A stretch of 45,331 nt of DNA, from positions 1 through 45,331 of the forward strand of contig JACZKQ010000153.1 of the NCBI GenBank assembly GCA_014859965.1, written 5' to 3'. Made by a program: the position numbers and the translations under genes. Under the pieces are notes generated by a model, which saw nothing but the letters and a program-made list of their open reading frames with translations, did not search any database and was not told where the DNA came from. This document shows, in pieces, positions 31,181 through 37,809 of the stretch (its first letter is position 1; the number at the start of each line of letters is the position of its first letter). Origin of the DNA: Phycisphaerae bacterium. Lineage in GTDB: Bacteria; Planctomycetota; Phycisphaerae; Sedimentisphaerales; Anaerohalosphaeraceae.

Positions 31181-32188
31181 ATGATACGCGTTGCGATTAT
31201 TGGAGCCAGCGGCTATACCGGTCTTGAGTCCATTGAAATACTGCTGCGGCATCCGGAGGCAAGGGTCACTTACCTGACCGCGCTGCCCGAGGAGTGCGGA
31301 CACGTCGCCGACATGTTCGGGTCGCTGCGGGGCCGGCTCGAAATGCAGGTGGAACCGCTGGATATGGGCAAACTGGCCGACAGCGCAGATGTGGCTCTGT
31401 GCTGCCTGCCGCACAAGGTCTCGATGGGTTTCGTCCCGCGACTCCTCGATACCGGCCTGAAGGTCATCGACTTCAGCGCCGATTACCGCCTCAAGGACGT
31501 GGTCGTTTACGAGAAATATTACCAGCCCCACACCGACCGTGAAAACCTCGCCCACGCCGTGTTCGGTCTGCCCGAACTCTTCCGCGAAGACATCCGCAGC
31601 GCCCGGCTCGTCGCCAATCCCGGCTGCTATCCCACGGGCGCGCTGCTGGCGATCGCGCCGCTGCTCAAGAACGGATTGATCGAAACCAAAGGCATCATCG
31701 TCAACTCCGTCACCGGCGTCACCGGAGGCGGCAAGAACCCCTCGGTGCTGTTCCATTACCCGAACATGAACGAGAACCTGCTGGCCTACGGCATCGGCTC
31801 GCACCGTCACATGCCCGAGATGGAGCAGATCGCCTCGGTCGTCGCCGGCACGCCCGTCGAAATGCTGTTCCAGCCGCACGTCGGACCCTTCGACCGCGGC
31901 ATCCTCTCCACCGTATACTGCGATCCGAAACGGTCGCTGACCAAAGAAGAGCTGCACGAGATGTACCGCACGTTCTACCAGAGCGAGCAGTTTGTCCGCG
32001 TCCTCAACGGCCCGCCGGCCCTCAAGCATGTCGCCCGGAGCAACTACTGTCACGTCTTTCCGGCAATCGCCAAGGGCAAGATCATCTGCTTCTCGGCGAT
32101 CGACAATCTCATTAAGGGCGCGTCCGGACAGGCTATTCAGAATATGAATATCATCTTCGATCTCGAAGAAACCCTCGGATTGAAATAG
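31181..32188 (+). CDS. argC: N-acetyl-gamma-glutamyl-phosphate reductase
   Basis: A 335-residue NADPH enzyme of arginine synthesis. The N-terminal nucleotide-binding motif is VAIIGASGYTGLESIEILLRHPE; the active-site cysteine is in LVANPGCYPTGALLAIAPLL near residue 147; SVTGVTGGGKNPS and the His of GIGSHRHMPEMEQI follow. The ATG at 31181 stands behind AAAGGAAC. No other arg gene is adjacent; the next gene 80 bases on is a nitrilase-family hydrolase. Confidence 0.95.
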   Translation: MIRVAIIGASGYTGLESIEILLRHPEARVTYLTALPEECGHVADMFGSLRGRLEMQVEPLDMGKLADSADVALCCLPHKVSMGFVPRLLDTGLKVIDFSADYRLKDVVVYEKYYQPHTDRENLAHAVFGLPELFREDIRSARLVANPGCYPTGALLAIAPLLKNGLIETKGIIVNSVTGVTGGGKNPSVLFHYPNMNENLLAYGIGSHRHMPEMEQIASVVAGTPVEMLFQPHVGPFDRGILSTVYCDPKRSLTKEELHEMYRTFYQSEQFVRVLNGPPALKHVARSNYCHVFPAIAKGKIICFSAIDNLIKGASGQAIQNMNIIFDLEETLGLK

Positions 32189-32268
32189 GAGCACTCGACA
32201 TAACATGGAAACGGTATCCGCAGACGGCGCGGCAATGCGTCATCTGCGGATCATGTGAGGGCAAGTTC

Positions 32269-33120
32269 ATGACGGACGGCATACTGAAGATTGCGACCTG
32301 CCAGTTCGGCGTCGGACCCGACGCGGCGGCCAACGGCGCCCACATACGGGATTGCATTCGACACGCCGCCGATGGGGGCGCCGACGTCGTGCACTTCTCC
32401 GAATGTGCGATGAGCGGCTATGCCGGAACCGATTTTGCATCCTTCGAAGCGTTCGACTGGGACCGCCTCCGCGCCGAAACGCAAGCGGTCATGCAGGCTG
32501 CCCGCGAGGCCGCTATATGGGTCGTGCTGGGCAGTTCCCACCGTCTCACGCCGCCCTACAATCCCCACAACTGTCTCTATCTCATCGCTCCCGACGGCAC
32601 GCTCGCCGACCGCTACGACAAACGCTTCTCCACGAACGTCGATCTCAAGCACTACACGCCAGGCGACCGGTTCGTGAATTTCCAGGTGAACGGCGTCACC
32701 TGCTCGCTGCTGATCTGCTTCGACCTGCGGTTTCCGGAGATCTACCGGGCCCTCTACAGGCAGGGCGTCCAGTGCATCCTCCAGTCGTTCTACAACGCCC
32801 GGCAGAACGGCCCGAGCGTCCACACGCATATTATGCGTCAGACGATGCAGTGCCGCGCTGCGACCAACCACATGTGGGTCAGCATGAGCAATTCGTGCGC
32901 GTGGTTTTCGCCTTACCCGTCCTGTTTCATCCGGCCCGACGGCAAGATCGTCAAGCAGCTTCAGATGCACCGTGAAGGCGTGATGATCAACACGGTCGAC
33001 GTGCACAAAGAATTCTACGATCCGATGGCCGACTTCCGTGATATGGCCCTGGACGGCCGCCTCACGAACGGCCCCGGCCCCATCGAGGACCCGCGCTCGA
33101 CCGACACGAAAAATCTGTAA
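32269..33120 (+). CDS. carbon-nitrogen hydrolase (nitrilase family)
   Basis: A 283-residue hydrolase with the Glu-Lys-Cys triad of the nitrilase superfamily: E45 (HFSECAMSGY), K118 (RYDKRF) and C150 (ICFDLRFPE). The C-terminal half has the usual NHMWVSMSNS strand. Members cut amides or nitriles; candidates are omega-amidase, N-carbamoyl amidase or agmatine-type hydrolases. Its place after argC suggests an arginine or polyamine link, but this is only context. Confidence 0.85.
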   Translation: MTDGILKIATCQFGVGPDAAANGAHIRDCIRHAADGGADVVHFSECAMSGYAGTDFASFEAFDWDRLRAETQAVMQAAREAAIWVVLGSSHRLTPPYNPHNCLYLIAPDGTLADRYDKRFSTNVDLKHYTPGDRFVNFQVNGVTCSLLICFDLRFPEIYRALYRQGVQCILQSFYNARQNGPSVHTHIMRQTMQCRAATNHMWVSMSNSCAWFSPYPSCFIRPDGKIVKQLQMHREGVMINTVDVHKEFYDPMADFRDMALDGRLTNGPGPIEDPRSTDTKNL

Positions 33121-33185
33121 ACTTGAATATGTCATGCCGATATCATGATGACCGGATTGGCTGCCCGACTTTGAGGAGTGTTGCC

Positions 33186-33452
33186 ATGACAATGCAGAAG
33201 AACTTTAAAATCGTCACCTGGTTTATTTCCATCGGCCTGGCCGTTGGCGTCGGCTCGCTGTCTGCGCTGCTGGTGATGGCATTCATCCCCAGCCCCGGCA
33301 CATCCCTGGATGCTGTCCTCCTGCTCATGGTCTCAGGCGGCTTTGCCTGCGCCGCGTTCGGCGTCGTGTGGCTGCTGTATTACGTCTTCAAACACATGGA
33401 CATGCAGTCCAAAACGTCGCCTGCCGTTCCGGCCTCCGCCCGCGGGGCCTGA
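33186..33452 (+). CDS. small two-helix membrane protein
   Basis: An 88-residue protein with two hydrophobic helices (IVTWFISIGLAVGVGSLSALLVMAF and LLLMVSGGFACAAFGVVWLLYYVF, in parts) and a Ser/Pro/Ala tail. GAGGAG precedes the ATG at 33186. I recognise no family. It lies 65 bases after the hydrolase gene. Confidence 0.6.
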   Translation: MTMQKNFKIVTWFISIGLAVGVGSLSALLVMAFIPSPGTSLDAVLLLMVSGGFACAAFGVVWLLYYVFKHMDMQSKTSPAVPASARGA

Positions 33453-33849
33453 CGCGCCGACGTGCGTTACTTCCGGATTATAGGTCCTCTCTGAAAAACC
33501 TGCAAAAACGCATTATCCGTCTTGCTATGACGGCAACTCTGCGCCTCGCTGACTCTGCCCAACCGACGGGTCGGCCCCAGTGTCCGATAAACTCTTGCCC
33601 AGCGCAACACCAGTGTCATTGCCGGCCGTCTGATCACGGGCGTCGGCGCTTCGACAACCTGCGCCACCCCTGCCGTCTGTACCGACTGTGATTTCTATGC
33701 AGACCCGAAACCCATTAAGTACCTCAATTATGAGGTCGATAAACGAGCAAGTTATTCCAATGAAATGTCCGCGATATCACGCATATCGAAAGAAGAGAGG
33801 CATAATCAGAAGTACGAGCCAAGCAATGTTTCTAAAAGGAGAACCAGAG
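33453..33849. other. 397-base gap, probable leader of the tubulin-like gene
   Basis: No convincing coding ORF. It becomes AT-rich from about 33700. CCTCAATTATGAGG (33720-33733) is a short inverted repeat and AAAGGAG (33836-33842) is the ribosome site of the tubulin-like gene. I see no clear sigma-70 promoter. The length suggests a long untranslated leader. Confidence 0.4.
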
Positions 33850-35265
33850 ATGGCAGGAAAGAAGAGTCACACCAGCGCACGGAGCACCAAGGCGAAGACG
33901 CCGCGTGCCCGCAGCAGCGCAAAGCCGCGCCCGGCCGTAGAGAGCACCTCGCCCAAGGCAGGCGCTAAGGCCAAGCCCGTAACCCGCAAGCAGACGACCA
34001 CGACGGCAAAAGCCGCCCCGAAGGTCACCGCTCGCAAACGTCAGACGACCAAAGCGAAAAGCACGCCGAAGGTAACGGCCCGCAAGCACACCGCGCCCAA
34101 GGCGGCCGGCAAAGATTTTGACTTCAATTCGTGGCTGCTGCCGACACTCGAACTCGAGCACTACGAACCCAGCATCGAAGAAGAAGCCGGCGTCCAGGAC
34201 CACATCAAGGGTTCGACCCGCTTCGCATGGCTCGGCGCCGGCCAGTGCGGCGGCCGCCTCGTCAAGTCGTTCTACGACCTCGGCTACCGCAAGGCACTCG
34301 CCGTCAACACCACGCACCACGACCTCGATCTGCTCGAAATCCCCGCCTCCCAGAAGTTCCTCATGGACATCGGCGAACACGGTGCAGGCAAGGATATGGA
34401 ACGCGGCAAAGCGGCCGTCGAGCAGCACAGCCAGGAAATCCTCCACAGTGCACGCAAGACCTTCGGCACCCAGGTCGACCGCATCATGGTCTGCTTCGGC
34501 GCCGGCGGCGGCACCGGCAGCGGCAGCGTCAAAGGCCTCATCGAAGTCGCCAAACGCTACGCCCGCTACATCGGCATCAAAGACCCCAACAAGAAGGTCG
34601 GCTGCATCATGACACTGCCCACGACCGGCGAGTCCAGCTCCCCGATGGTCGCCCAGAACGCATGGCAGGTCGCCACCGATCTCAGCAAGATGGCCTCCAA
34701 AGGCGAGATCAGCCCGCTCATCATCGTCGACAACGACAAAGTCGGCAAGATGTACCCCGGCATGACCGTCCGCAACTTCTGGCCCAGCATCAACAACACC
34801 GTCGCGGCCCTGTTCGACATCTTCAATCGCCTCAGCGCGATGTCCAGCCGGTACACCTCCTTTGATCCGGTCGATTACCACAGCATCATCGAATCCGGCG
34901 GCTGCGCCATCATGGGCCTCACCAAGGTCGCACAGGTCGGCGACAAGTTCGCACTCAGCCAGGCCGTCAAGAAGAACCTCGAAAAGACGCTCCTGGCCGG
35001 CGGCTTCAATCTCAGAAGCGCCAAACTCGCCGGCTGCATCGCCGTCGGCGGCAAGAAGCTCATGACCAACGTCAAGGGCCTTCAGGACAACATCGACTAC
35101 GCTTTCGATGTCCTCTCCGAGGTGACAGGCAACGCAACGATCCATCGCGGCATCTACGAAGATAACCGCGACTCGCTGCGGGTCTACACCATCATCGGCG
35201 GGATGGACGCCTGCACCGCACGGCTCGAAGAACTCAAGAGCCGCAGCGCCGTCACCGTCGGTTAA
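33850..35265 (+). CDS. tubulin/FtsZ-superfamily GTPase with histone H1-like N-terminal tail
   Basis: A 471-residue protein. Residues 1-88 are Lys/Arg/Ala/Thr/Pro-rich and carry the repeat APKVTARK and TPKVTARK, like histone H1 tails. A short acidic linker follows. The GTPase starts near 125 with GAGQCGGR (T1 loop; GQCG as in eukaryotic tubulin), VNTTHHDL (T3), FGAGGGTGSGS at 217-226 (T4, the tubulin signature), LPTTGESSSP (T5) and VDNDK (T6). SFDPVD at 337-342 aligns with the FtsZ T7 loop NxDxxD, keeping both Asp residues, so GTP hydrolysis on polymerisation is possible. The whole is closer to CetZ-like proteins than to canonical FtsZ. The ATG follows AAAGGAG. Confidence 0.85.
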   Translation: MAGKKSHTSARSTKAKTPRARSSAKPRPAVESTSPKAGAKAKPVTRKQTTTTAKAAPKVTARKRQTTKAKSTPKVTARKHTAPKAAGKDFDFNSWLLPTLELEHYEPSIEEEAGVQDHIKGSTRFAWLGAGQCGGRLVKSFYDLGYRKALAVNTTHHDLDLLEIPASQKFLMDIGEHGAGKDMERGKAAVEQHSQEILHSARKTFGTQVDRIMVCFGAGGGTGSGSVKGLIEVAKRYARYIGIKDPNKKVGCIMTLPTTGESSSPMVAQNAWQVATDLSKMASKGEISPLIIVDNDKVGKMYPGMTVRNFWPSINNTVAALFDIFNRLSAMSSRYTSFDPVDYHSIIESGGCAIMGLTKVAQVGDKFALSQAVKKNLEKTLLAGGFNLRSAKLAGCIAVGGKKLMTNVKGLQDNIDYAFDVLSEVTGNATIHRGIYEDNRDSLRVYTIIGGMDACTARLEELKSRSAVTVG

Positions 35266-35298
35266 GAACGAATCCTCGAACACGTGATTCGTGCGTTT

Positions 35299-35352
35299 CG
35301 CCGGGCTTGTCGTATCGGTCAGGGATCGGTCGGCAGGCCCGGCGTTCTTTTT
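35299..35352 (+). terminator. probable terminator after the tubulin-like gene
   Basis: CGCCGGGC (35299-35306) and GCCCGGCG (35337-35344) pair perfectly, with a loop of 30 bases and the T-rich tail TTCTTTTT. The long loop lowers certainty. It lies between convergent genes. Confidence 0.6.
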
Positions 35353-35393
35353 GCGCCGGCCCCGCCGCCCGCCGCCGCACGTCAGAACGCATT

Positions 35394-35768
35394 TTACTTG
35401 CCGCCAACCCTCTCCGTCAGTTCGGCAATCTGAAGGCTGAGCCGCTTGACGTCCCGCAGGAGGAGGTTTCGCCCCATGAACTGCCAATACCACAGCTTGC
35501 ACACGCTGACGAACATCATCGCCGTAATGAACACCGTGGCGTACAGGATCATCGCCCGGGTCTCCTCGACCTGGAAAAACCGCCACGCCGAAAATATAGC
35601 CACGGCCAGAAAGCCCCATATATAAATCCACAGTACGACCACCAGCCATCGCAGCCGCGTCCGGAAGGAATCCATGATCATTCCGCGCACCGTTTCCTCA
35701 CGACCCGCGCTGTACTCGCCCGGAAGATCCGGCGCATCGATAATCTTTTTGAGTTCTTCTTCGTTCAT
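35394..35768 (-). CDS. DUF6768-like membrane protein beside an ECF sigma factor
   Basis: A 124-residue protein with a cytoplasmic start MNEEELKKIIDAP, two membrane helices (LRWLVVVLWIYIWGFLAVAIF and MILYATVFITAMMFVSVCKLWYW, in parts) and a coiled tail LLLRDVKRLSLQIAELTERV. The pattern RxRLRWL, AxRFFQ and KLWYW fits what I recall of DUF6768. Its start is 23 bases after the sigma factor stop on the same strand. A role as a membrane regulator of that sigma factor is inferred from position. Confidence 0.75.
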   Translation of the reverse strand: MNEEELKKIIDAPDLPGEYSAGREETVRGMIMDSFRTRLRWLVVVLWIYIWGFLAVAIFSAWRFFQVEETRAMILYATVFITAMMFVSVCKLWYWQFMGRNLLLRDVKRLSLQIAELTERVGGK

Positions 35769-35791
35769 GGCATATCTCCTGAAATCATCAT

Positions 35792-36352
35792 TTACTCACT
35801 TCGATTGTCATTGACCCGATACGATTCCTTCAGCCGCGCCCGTGCCTTAAAGAGCCGCGACTTCACCGTCCCCTCCGGAATCTGCAATACCCCCGCAATC
35901 TCCGCCACCGAAAACCCCTCCAGGTAATGCAGCGTCAGCACCTGCCGATCCCGCACGCCGAGCCGATCCACAATCCGCCGCGTTGCGTCATCCGCCTCAT
36001 TGCCCCCGGCCGCACCCTGCACTGCGTCCGCCGCCTTTTCCGCCGCCGCCTCACGCAGCCTTCTATCCCGCACCTTCCGGCCGATCGCATCGGCCGCCTT
36101 GTGCGTCACGATCCGAAACGCCCACGTCCGAAAGCACGCCGCATCCTCCAGCCGCCGCAGCCCCCGGATGATCGCCACCCACGCCTCCTGCACCACGTCC
36201 CACGCCGCCTCCGCGTCGTCCGTCAGCCGATACGCATGCGTCCACAGCGGCCGCTGCCACCGCTCTACCAAAGCCTTCATCGCCGCCGCATCGCCCCCCT
36301 GGCTCCGCAGCACCAACAGCTCGTCGACAAGTTGTTCCCGATCTGCCCTCAT
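35792..36352 (-). CDS. ECF RNA polymerase sigma factor
   Basis: A 186-residue sigma-70 family protein of ECF type. Region 2 is LWTHAYRLTDDAEAAWDVVQEAWVAIIRGL with FRTWAFRIVTHKAADAIGR; region 4 is LTLHYLEGFSVAEIAGVLQIPEGTVKSRLFKARARL, a helix-turn-helix. The chosen ATG at 36352 overlaps the stop of a three-codon leader ORF (ATG at 36360, Met-Ala-Leu), which itself lies 7 bases behind GGAGGG. A GTG at 36391 is also in frame. The DUF6768 protein follows. No anti-sigma factor with a zinc site is seen. Confidence 0.88.
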   Translation of the reverse strand: MRADREQLVDELLVLRSQGGDAAAMKALVERWQRPLWTHAYRLTDDAEAAWDVVQEAWVAIIRGLRRLEDAACFRTWAFRIVTHKAADAIGRKVRDRRLREAAAEKAADAVQGAAGGNEADDATRRIVDRLGVRDRQVLTLHYLEGFSVAEIAGVLQIPEGTVKSRLFKARARLKESYRVNDNRSE

Positions 36353-36451
36353 AACGCCATAATAGTCCCTCCCCCCGGCCGCAGGGTTCACTTTTTCCCC
36401 GGAAATGCGCTGTCAACTGCCGCCCACCCCCCGTGTCCACCCTGTATTGCC

Positions 36452-37684
36452 TCAGAGAACATCCCACGGCAGCGCGTAGTCGTTCTTCGATATCTTCGCA
36501 AACGCCCCGGTCGGGGATATCACCAGCCCCGGCGCAATCCGCGATTGCTGATAGGCATCACGAAATGCACACAGCCCCCTGGCATCCGCCCCCGAAGGCT
36601 GTGAAGCCAGCTTCACCTCAATCGGGTACAGCACGCCGTCCCTTTCAAGTACGATATCCACCTCGGCCCCGCCGTGACTCCGCCAGTGATAGAACGTCGG
36701 CGGCGTCCCCAAAACCCGGCCCAGCTTGCGAATCTCCCCCGCCACGGCCGTCTCGAATAATGCCCCTGTAAGCGGATGACCGCTCAAAGACCTCGCCGAC
36801 GACAGCATCTGCAGCGCGCACACAAGACCCGTATCAGCAAAGTAGCCCTTCGGCTTCGAGCTCGTTCGTTTGACCGTGCTGCCGCTGTAGGCCGGCGCCT
36901 CGAACCATTGGAATGTCGCCGACAGCGTGCTCAGCCACCGCCGGGCTGTCTGCGGCGTCAATCCCAACTCACGCCCCAATTGAGAGTAATTGATCTCCTG
37001 GCCCGTAAGCGCCGCCGCCAGTCGAACGAACCGGCCGAACTGCTGCCAGTCCGCCGTATCCGAGATCATCCGCACGTCGCGCTCGATGTACGTCTGCACG
37101 TACGCATTGTAATAATCCGGTATCAGCTCAAGCGAAATCCTGTCCGCCTCCGGCAGCCAGCCCCGCCACAACTGCTCGTACAGCGTCCGACCCGTCGTCG
37201 GCCGCTTCGGCGGCGCCGCGATCACCTCGTCCGGATCGTCCAGCCACCGCTCCAGCCAGCTTCTCTCCACCCGCTGCTCGTATATCTCGCTAAGGCAGAA
37301 ACCTTCCAGGTTCAGAAACACCGCCCGCCCCGCAAGGCTCTCTGCGATGGATTTCATCACCGACCACTGCTGCGACCCTGTTATGATGTACTGTCCGCTC
37401 GACCGGTCACGGTCTATCCGCCGCTTCACCGCCGCGACCAGTTCAGGGGCATATTGTATCTCGTCGAGGATTATCGGGCTCGGGTGATTGTCGAGAAACA
37501 GGTCCGGATCGTGACGGGCATTGCCGACGTCCACCACCGGGTCGAAAACAACACAATCCGCACCGCTGAATACGTGACGCACAAGCGTACTCTTGCCCAC
37601 CTGCCGTGCCCCGGATAACACCACGCACGGAAACGCCGCCGACAGCTTTCTGAGTCGCTCGCTTATGATCCTGTGCTTGTACAT
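36452..37684 (-). CDS. AAA ATPase with DUF4143-type nuclease-like C-terminus
   Basis: A 410-residue protein. Walker A is VVLSGARQVGKSTLV near residue 24 and Walker B is SPIILDEIQYAP near 70, followed by ITGSQQW (sensor 1). The middle has a winged-helix segment (YSQLGRELGLTPQTARRWLSTL). The end FYHWRSHGGAEVDIVLERDGVLYPIEVKL carries the E/D...E-x-K pattern of PD-(D/E)xK-like nucleases, as in the DUF4143 family. Function of this large family is not known; many members lie in variable regions. The ATG at 37684 was chosen; a longer reading would translate through the palindrome. Confidence 0.85.
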   Translation of the reverse strand: MYKHRIISERLRKLSAAFPCVVLSGARQVGKSTLVRHVFSGADCVVFDPVVDVGNARHDPDLFLDNHPSPIILDEIQYAPELVAAVKRRIDRDRSSGQYIITGSQQWSVMKSIAESLAGRAVFLNLEGFCLSEIYEQRVERSWLERWLDDPDEVIAAPPKRPTTGRTLYEQLWRGWLPEADRISLELIPDYYNAYVQTYIERDVRMISDTADWQQFGRFVRLAAALTGQEINYSQLGRELGLTPQTARRWLSTLSATFQWFEAPAYSGSTVKRTSSKPKGYFADTGLVCALQMLSSARSLSGHPLTGALFETAVAGEIRKLGRVLGTPPTFYHWRSHGGAEVDIVLERDGVLYPIEVKLASQPSGADARGLCAFRDAYQQSRIAPGLVISPTGAFAKISKNDYALPWDVL

Positions 37685-37694
37685 AGTGGCTGTA

Positions 37695-37731
37695 CCTCGA
37701 TAATTGATGATGCCATCATCAATTATCGAGG
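37695..37731. repeat. perfect 37-bp palindrome upstream of the AAA ATPase gene
   Basis: CCTCGATAATTGATGATG (37695-37712) is exactly repeated in reverse complement at 37714-37731, with one central base. It lies 11 bases before the ATPase start codon. It could be an operator that overlaps the translation start, a hairpin hiding the ribosome site, or a recombination site. Confidence 0.85.
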
Positions 37732-37809
37732 CAAATCGCCCGGCAGTCAACCAAAATAGTTGATTTCAACCACATTCTTGCCCCACCACCTGCCGCCGAT
37801 CACCCTTTC

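Follow-up and report, generated by a model that had tools for sequence, protein, structure and literature searches.

A gene for a tubulin/FtsZ-superfamily GTPase with intact T1, T4, and T7 motifs was found in the window, i.e., the whole stretch of 45,331 nucleotides of Phycisphaerae DNA analyzed here. The encoded protein appears by sequence comparison to be nearer to TubZ than to FtsZ, and it carries an N-terminal polycationic tail. We tentatively propose that it forms a chromosomal TubZ-like filament, which would be tethered to nucleic acid by the tail and would act in the positioning or organization of DNA. Planctomycetes divide without FtsZ, and the internal arrangement of their cells is still poorly understood. 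If this reading is true, the fusion of a tubulin relative to a nucleic-acid tether would link the cytoskeleton and the chromosome in one protein. The positions of the gene, its parts, and related loci are given in Table 1.

Table 1. Positions of the tubulin-like gene, its parts, its neighbors, and related loci. Ranges without a locus name are positions in the window.
Feature	Position	Strand	Details
Whole gene, TubZ-like tubulin-superfamily GTPase with polycationic N-terminal tail	33850..35265	+	471 aa plus stop
Ribosome-binding site AAGGAG	33836..33841	+	8 nt 5' of ATG, read directly
Histone-H1-like tail, aa 1-88	33850..34113	+	composition (18 K, 8 R, 1 E)
PKVTARK repeat 1, aa 57-63	34018..34038	+	translation
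PKVTARK repeat 2, aa 73-79	34066..34086	+	translation
Conserved FDFNxWLLPxLxLExYEP segment, aa 90-107, tail/core junction	34117..34170	+	alignments
GTP-binding domain, aa 123-300	34216..34749	+	PF00091 at aa 127-300; fold matches CetZ, TubZ, FtsZ
T1 loop GAGQCGG, aa 129-135	34234..34254	+	translation, alignment
T3 loop GAGKD, aa 178-182	34381..34395	+	alignment; common to plasmid TubZ-like protein (L213)
T4 signature GGGTGSG, aa 219-225	34504..34524	+	translation, alignment
T7 loop DPVD, catalytic Asp339 and Asp342	34864..34875	+	alignment
C-terminal domain, TubZ/FtsZ-like, aa 343-471	34876..35262	+	TIGR00065 match to aa 454; full-length profile match with TubZ-like proteins
DUF6768 protein	35394-35768		neighbor of the window gene
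ECF sigma factor	35792-36391		neighbor of the window gene
Marine phage tubulins	L130-L209, e.g., L144:4992-6128		mostly just upstream of terminase and portal
Helix-turn-helix-fused paralogues	L072:7723-9519 (-); L069:6708-8288; L068:8379-10082; L099:1-867		tandem with untailed or short-tailed copy

The motifs named in the first-pass annotation, i.e., the GGGTGSG tubulin signature, a GQCG T1 loop, and both Asp residues of the T7 loop, were all found in the translation of this gene. In the T7 loop, D339 and D342 are kept, and Ser337 stands in the place of the Asn of the FtsZ NxDxxD motif. The assignment to the tubulin/FtsZ superfamily was upheld as well, by the score against the Pfam Tubulin family (46.2 bits for PF00091, whose cut-off is 33), by the motifs, and by the fold matches. 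A 605-aa antisense ORF (33832-35649, minus strand) overlaps the gene; the strand and frame of the gene itself are fixed by the 60-80% protein identity to its relatives. An artefact of the start codon or frame was rejected, because a ribosome-binding site is present and the tail lies in the same frame and is kept in most relatives.

The affinity of the protein within the superfamily was analyzed by profile and structure comparisons. The window protein did not reach the cut-offs of the FtsZ equivalog model (TIGR00065, 43.6 bits against 295.2) or of Tubulin_2 (PF13809, 16.9 bits against 27). It had no match to TubZ-like_C (PF22453) in the Pfam search; the cut-off of this model is exceeded by two phage relatives. 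Among solved structures, the family profile matched TubZ/RepX best (1.2e-15), followed by CetZ (6e-10) and FtsZ (1e-6 and weaker). A profile-profile comparison with four plasmid or phage TubZ-like proteins covered 335 columns, the C-terminal domain among them, with an E-value of 1.4e-35. Against single sequences, the family profile gave 1.7e-17 for a TubZ-like protein and 3.6e-10 for E. coli FtsZ, the latter over a longer stretch. No FtsA/ZipA-binding peptide of the type at the FtsZ C-terminus was seen in residues 343-471. In a structure model built from 14 sequences, the blocks of the GTP-binding domain mostly had a pLDDT of 60-90, and the C-terminal domain was poor, with low confidence. The predicted fold of the GTP-binding domain is tubulin-like, as the first-pass annotation had anticipated: the matches listed by Foldseek were exclusively tubulin/FtsZ-superfamily structures (E down to 1.1e-11). 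In a structure comparison with about 200 residues aligned, the Z-scores were 21.2 for CetZ, 19.9 for TubZ, and 19.7 and below for FtsZ; rows within one unit of each other were counted as tied, so the fold search by itself picks no subfamily. It is the profile comparisons that place the protein nearer to TubZ than to FtsZ.

In its own genome, which is 99% complete, PF00091 detected no gene besides the window gene. The search for ftsZ elsewhere in the genome, suggested by the first-pass annotation, accordingly returned nothing, and no canonical FtsZ was found by PF00091 in the 161 genomes of the order (probably Sedimentisphaerales). The loss of FtsZ has been reported for Planctomycetota, including Phycisphaerae (PMC5147048; PMC12283558). 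With the family profile, the window family was found in 28 of the 161 genomes, and the PF00091 matches in the order belong exclusively to this family, apart from one weak match below the cut-off (G590). The family was found in none of the genomes of the class sampled outside the order, nor was it found described in papers on tubulin-like proteins of Phycisphaerae. It is thus an accessory family, patchily distributed in an FtsZ-less order, and a general role in division is therefore disfavored.

A more specific version of such a role would be the replacement of FtsZ in division, the tail serving as a tether to the membrane or cell wall instead of FtsA or SepF. Consistent with this, the protein is the sole tubulin homologue in a genome where neither FtsZ nor SepF was found, and FtsW/RodA-type genes are present there; two FtsA-family matches in the same genome are FtsA or PilM-type proteins. 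This role is nevertheless distinctly unlikely. The genomes of the order outside the 28 lack any tubulin homologue, so one is not required for division in this order; the protein scores far under the FtsZ cut-off; and the tail has, by eye, no hydrophobic or amphipathic pattern. In addition, no dcw or other division cluster was found, the neighbors of the window gene and of its relatives not being division genes. On these grounds, and with the greater affinity to TubZ, the "division variant" offered in the first-pass annotation was not supported. ParB-family proteins are also present in the genome, and the window protein is therefore not needed to explain chromosome segregation.

The genes flanking the window gene are a nitrilase-family gene, a small unidentified ORF, and the genes for a DUF6768 protein and an ECF sigma factor. 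The latter two are adjoined by a gene for an AAA_14/DUF4143 ATPase (36452-37750, minus strand). No centromere-like direct repeats or iterons were found within positions 32000-37500, and no TubR-type adaptor gene is evident beside the window gene. The relatives are located next to gap/pgk/rpe/accD-like genes (identified by eye) or unrelated genes, and no conserved functional partner gene was found across them. In three genomes (L088, L089:7563-8222, and L092:6849-7505), the tubulin gene is immediately preceded by a GAF-like/coiled-coil gene of 219 aa; no such gene is located beside the window copy. A plasmid or prophage gene was rejected as an explanation, the neighbors looking chromosomal and one relative lying on a 2.96-Mb chromosome.

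The basic tail of about 88 residues with a PKVTARK repeat, also described in the first-pass annotation, was confirmed: it contains 26 K/R, a single E, and no D, has a computed pI of about 12, and carries the repeat twice. Its lysine count tops that of every 88-residue stop-free stretch in the six frames of the window. The tail has no Pfam match of its own and is expected from its composition to be disordered. Its likeness to histone H1 is compositional: it is a long, low-complexity stretch, rich in K, R, A, P, and T, nearly free of acidic residues, and variable in repeat number. Among the other proteins of the same genome, polycationic tails were matched at chance level at most.

The conservation of the tail, a further check proposed at the outset, was analyzed in the 28 genomes. 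The N-terminus of a main-clade copy is readable in 26 of them, and an in-frame tailed copy was found in 24 of these 26. The tails of the relatives comprise 44 to about 270 residues with a net charge of +17 to +104, and acidic residues are almost absent. The two genomes without a proper tail are G578, which is 54% complete, and G585, with a 17-residue remnant. In the latter genome (locus L092, on the 2.96-Mb chromosome), the tail is shrunk to MAKKSGKNRKEEAGSSE, and a second copy that comes after it has a strongly acidic N-terminus (net -18), its remainder being partly masked. Between pairs of relatives, pN/pS was 0.28-0.49 for the tail and 0.03-0.18 for the core. In comparison with the nearest relative, the window tail retains 26 of 26 K/R and 31 of 63 other residues, a result that is supportive rather than proof, as the alignment scoring somewhat prefers K/R matches. 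These comparisons indicate that the tail is genuine and under selection, with its charge conserved and its length and sequence drifting.

Precedents for such tails are known. In AlgP and PhaF, H1-like tails on non-histone proteins serve as nucleoid tethers, and DNA binding was reported (PMC9239181). Hc2 is a DNA binder with a variable number of repeats (PMC2848022), and a lysine cluster of TubY binds both DNA and membranes (PMC7762940).

Tandem pairs of the gene were found in several genomes. The first copy of such a pair has no tail or a short one; the second, directly after it, starts with a neutral or acidic N-terminus and is extended at its C-terminus by about 126-157 residues. This extension matches AAA_lid_14 (down to 1.9e-17) and the end of an RtcR/PspF-like model, and HTH_8 is above its cut-off in one of these paralogues. 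These matches identify the extension as the end of a sigma-54 activator, with an AAA lid of the NtrC type and a Fis-type helix-turn-helix. DNA-binding parts therefore recur in the family. Degenerate relatives were also found. Second copies in one genus (L098:6392-7510 and L101:6683-7735) have lost the GTP-binding loops and kept the C-terminal half; they are possible non-catalytic partners. Two proteins from another family of the phylum (L226 and L227, in G472 and G446) combine an FHA-like domain and a coiled coil, both identified by eye, with a degenerate tubulin domain that retains the GIYED...VGGL end. The simplest reading of the tree is that the ancestor of the main clade (31 rows) already had the tail and that it was lost in the untailed group, in G585, and in the helix-turn-helix group.

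The sigma-54 activator lid and DNA-binding end of the tandem paralogue, together with degenerate members such as the FHA-fused ones, would also suit a GTP-dependent nucleoid-associated regulator, i.e., a DNA-bound transcription switch or scaffold without a dynamic filament. This is unlikely, however, because T1, T4, and the two T7 aspartates are retained in every tailed member aligned, which is what an assembling GTPase would be expected to show.

The nearest relatives outside the order are proteins of uncultivated marine tailed phages. A scan of IMG/VR found 168 loci encoding a relative, of which 80 were kept; these share about 50% identity with the window family across the whole GTPase core, and the PxLxLExYE part of the segment at residues 90-107 has a similar form in them (alignments). 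About 60 of the 80 loci have the same downstream neighbors, the terminase large subunit and portal genes, and this terminase is similar to that of T4-type phages. No tail was found among the 80 loci, in which the N-terminal extension is at most 41 aa long with a net charge of -10 to +6, or in two further phage loci. In 50,697 phage records, no member of the phage sister family is present apart from the distant gp138 of phage G, and neither the window protein nor the main phage clade had a match in PHROGs. This family would widen the phage tubulins well past the known TubZ and PhuZ groups. The tree unites the bacterial and phage sequences in a single group with a long stem (98/99), in which the bacterial ones make up a clade (92/89), and it does not settle which way the transfer between phages and bacteria went.

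The phage relationship, the patchy distribution, and the degeneracy of some paralogues could alternatively be explained by a captured phage tubulin kept for phage interference, which would co-assemble with phage filaments and poison them. We regard this as very improbable: PADLOC gave no match for the tubulin part, no defense neighborhood was recognized, the tree leaves the direction of transfer open, and such a function does not require a conserved cationic tail.

The mechanism that we tentatively prefer, a chromosomal filament on nucleic acid, can be outlined as follows. The core would bind GTP and make the T7 contact, as the intact motifs suggest, and would assemble into dynamic head-to-tail filaments, as expected from its family. 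The histone-H1/Hc2-like tail would be a multivalent tether that holds nucleic acid, most probably the nucleoid, by electrostatic attraction, and the many tails per filament would keep the filament on DNA. By assembling and turning over, the filament could then position or organize the chromosome, or a cargo located on the chromosome. TubZ is the tubulin of type III plasmid partition, certain phages and plasmids position their own DNA with such tubulins, and TubZ reaches DNA via the separate adaptor TubR. In the window protein, the DNA-binding part would instead be fused to the filament, and in some relatives the tandem paralogue with an AAA lid and helix-turn-helix would add site-specific binding.

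DNA is not the only ligand of polycations, which bind membranes, RNA, and polyphosphate too. DNA was put ahead of these because DNA-binding parts recur in the family, because of the affinity to TubZ, and because of the AlgP and PhaF precedent. Of the roles offered in the first-pass annotation, those linked to DNA are the likelier ones. The tail could otherwise tether polyphosphate, RNA, or another polyanion, so that the filament would position granules or ribonucleoprotein rather than the chromosome. A purely electrostatic tail cannot discriminate DNA from other polyanions by sequence alone, and AlgP, with an H1-like tail similar in composition, is needed for the even spacing of polyphosphate granules (PMC9239181). 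Such a cargo is nonetheless unlikely, as the helix-turn-helix paralogues and the TubZ affinity indicate DNA and the conserved neighborhood has no recognized granule gene. The fuller form of the DNA reading is doubtful as yet, namely an adaptor-free chromosomal tubulin-type DNA-positioning system with its tail on the nucleoid, in FtsZ-less bacteria, and with a sister family in abundant marine phages. We know of no earlier chromosomal tubulin-type DNA-positioning system.

Among known systems, TubZ (RepX/TubZ, TubZ-like proteins of Bacillota plasmids, and gp138 of phage G) provides the best full-length profile match to the window protein, at an identity of about 25%, and shares with it the T1 GxGQxGG, T3 GAGKD, and VDND motifs. 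Unlike TubZ systems, the window gene is chromosomal, and neither a TubR/TubY neighbor nor iterons were found nearby; its putative DNA-binding part is the N-terminal tail on the GTPase itself. FtsZ has the fold and the T4 and T7 motifs in common with the window protein, which differs from it by a score far under the equivalog cut-off, the lack of a division context, and the absence of a visible C-terminal peptide. Archaeal CetZ is among the top structure matches (Z 20-21) and has a GQxGG-type T1 loop; its sequence-profile score for the window family is below that of TubZ. To our knowledge, no CetZ carries a comparable tail. FtsZl1/Tubulin_2 (PF13809) is known from planctomycetes and carries additional N-terminal domains (PMC2875224); the window protein is under the cut-off of this family. 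The marine phage tubulins share the PxLxLExYE-like segment with the window protein and, unlike it, are untailed. Finally, the low-complexity lysine-rich repeats of Hc2, AlgP, and PhaF resemble the window tail and are likewise variable in number (PMC2848022; PMC9239181), and in AlgP and PhaF, as in the window protein, they form a tail on another domain (PMC9239181). In none of these three are the repeats attached to a cytoskeletal GTPase, in contrast to the window protein, where they precede a tubulin-type core.
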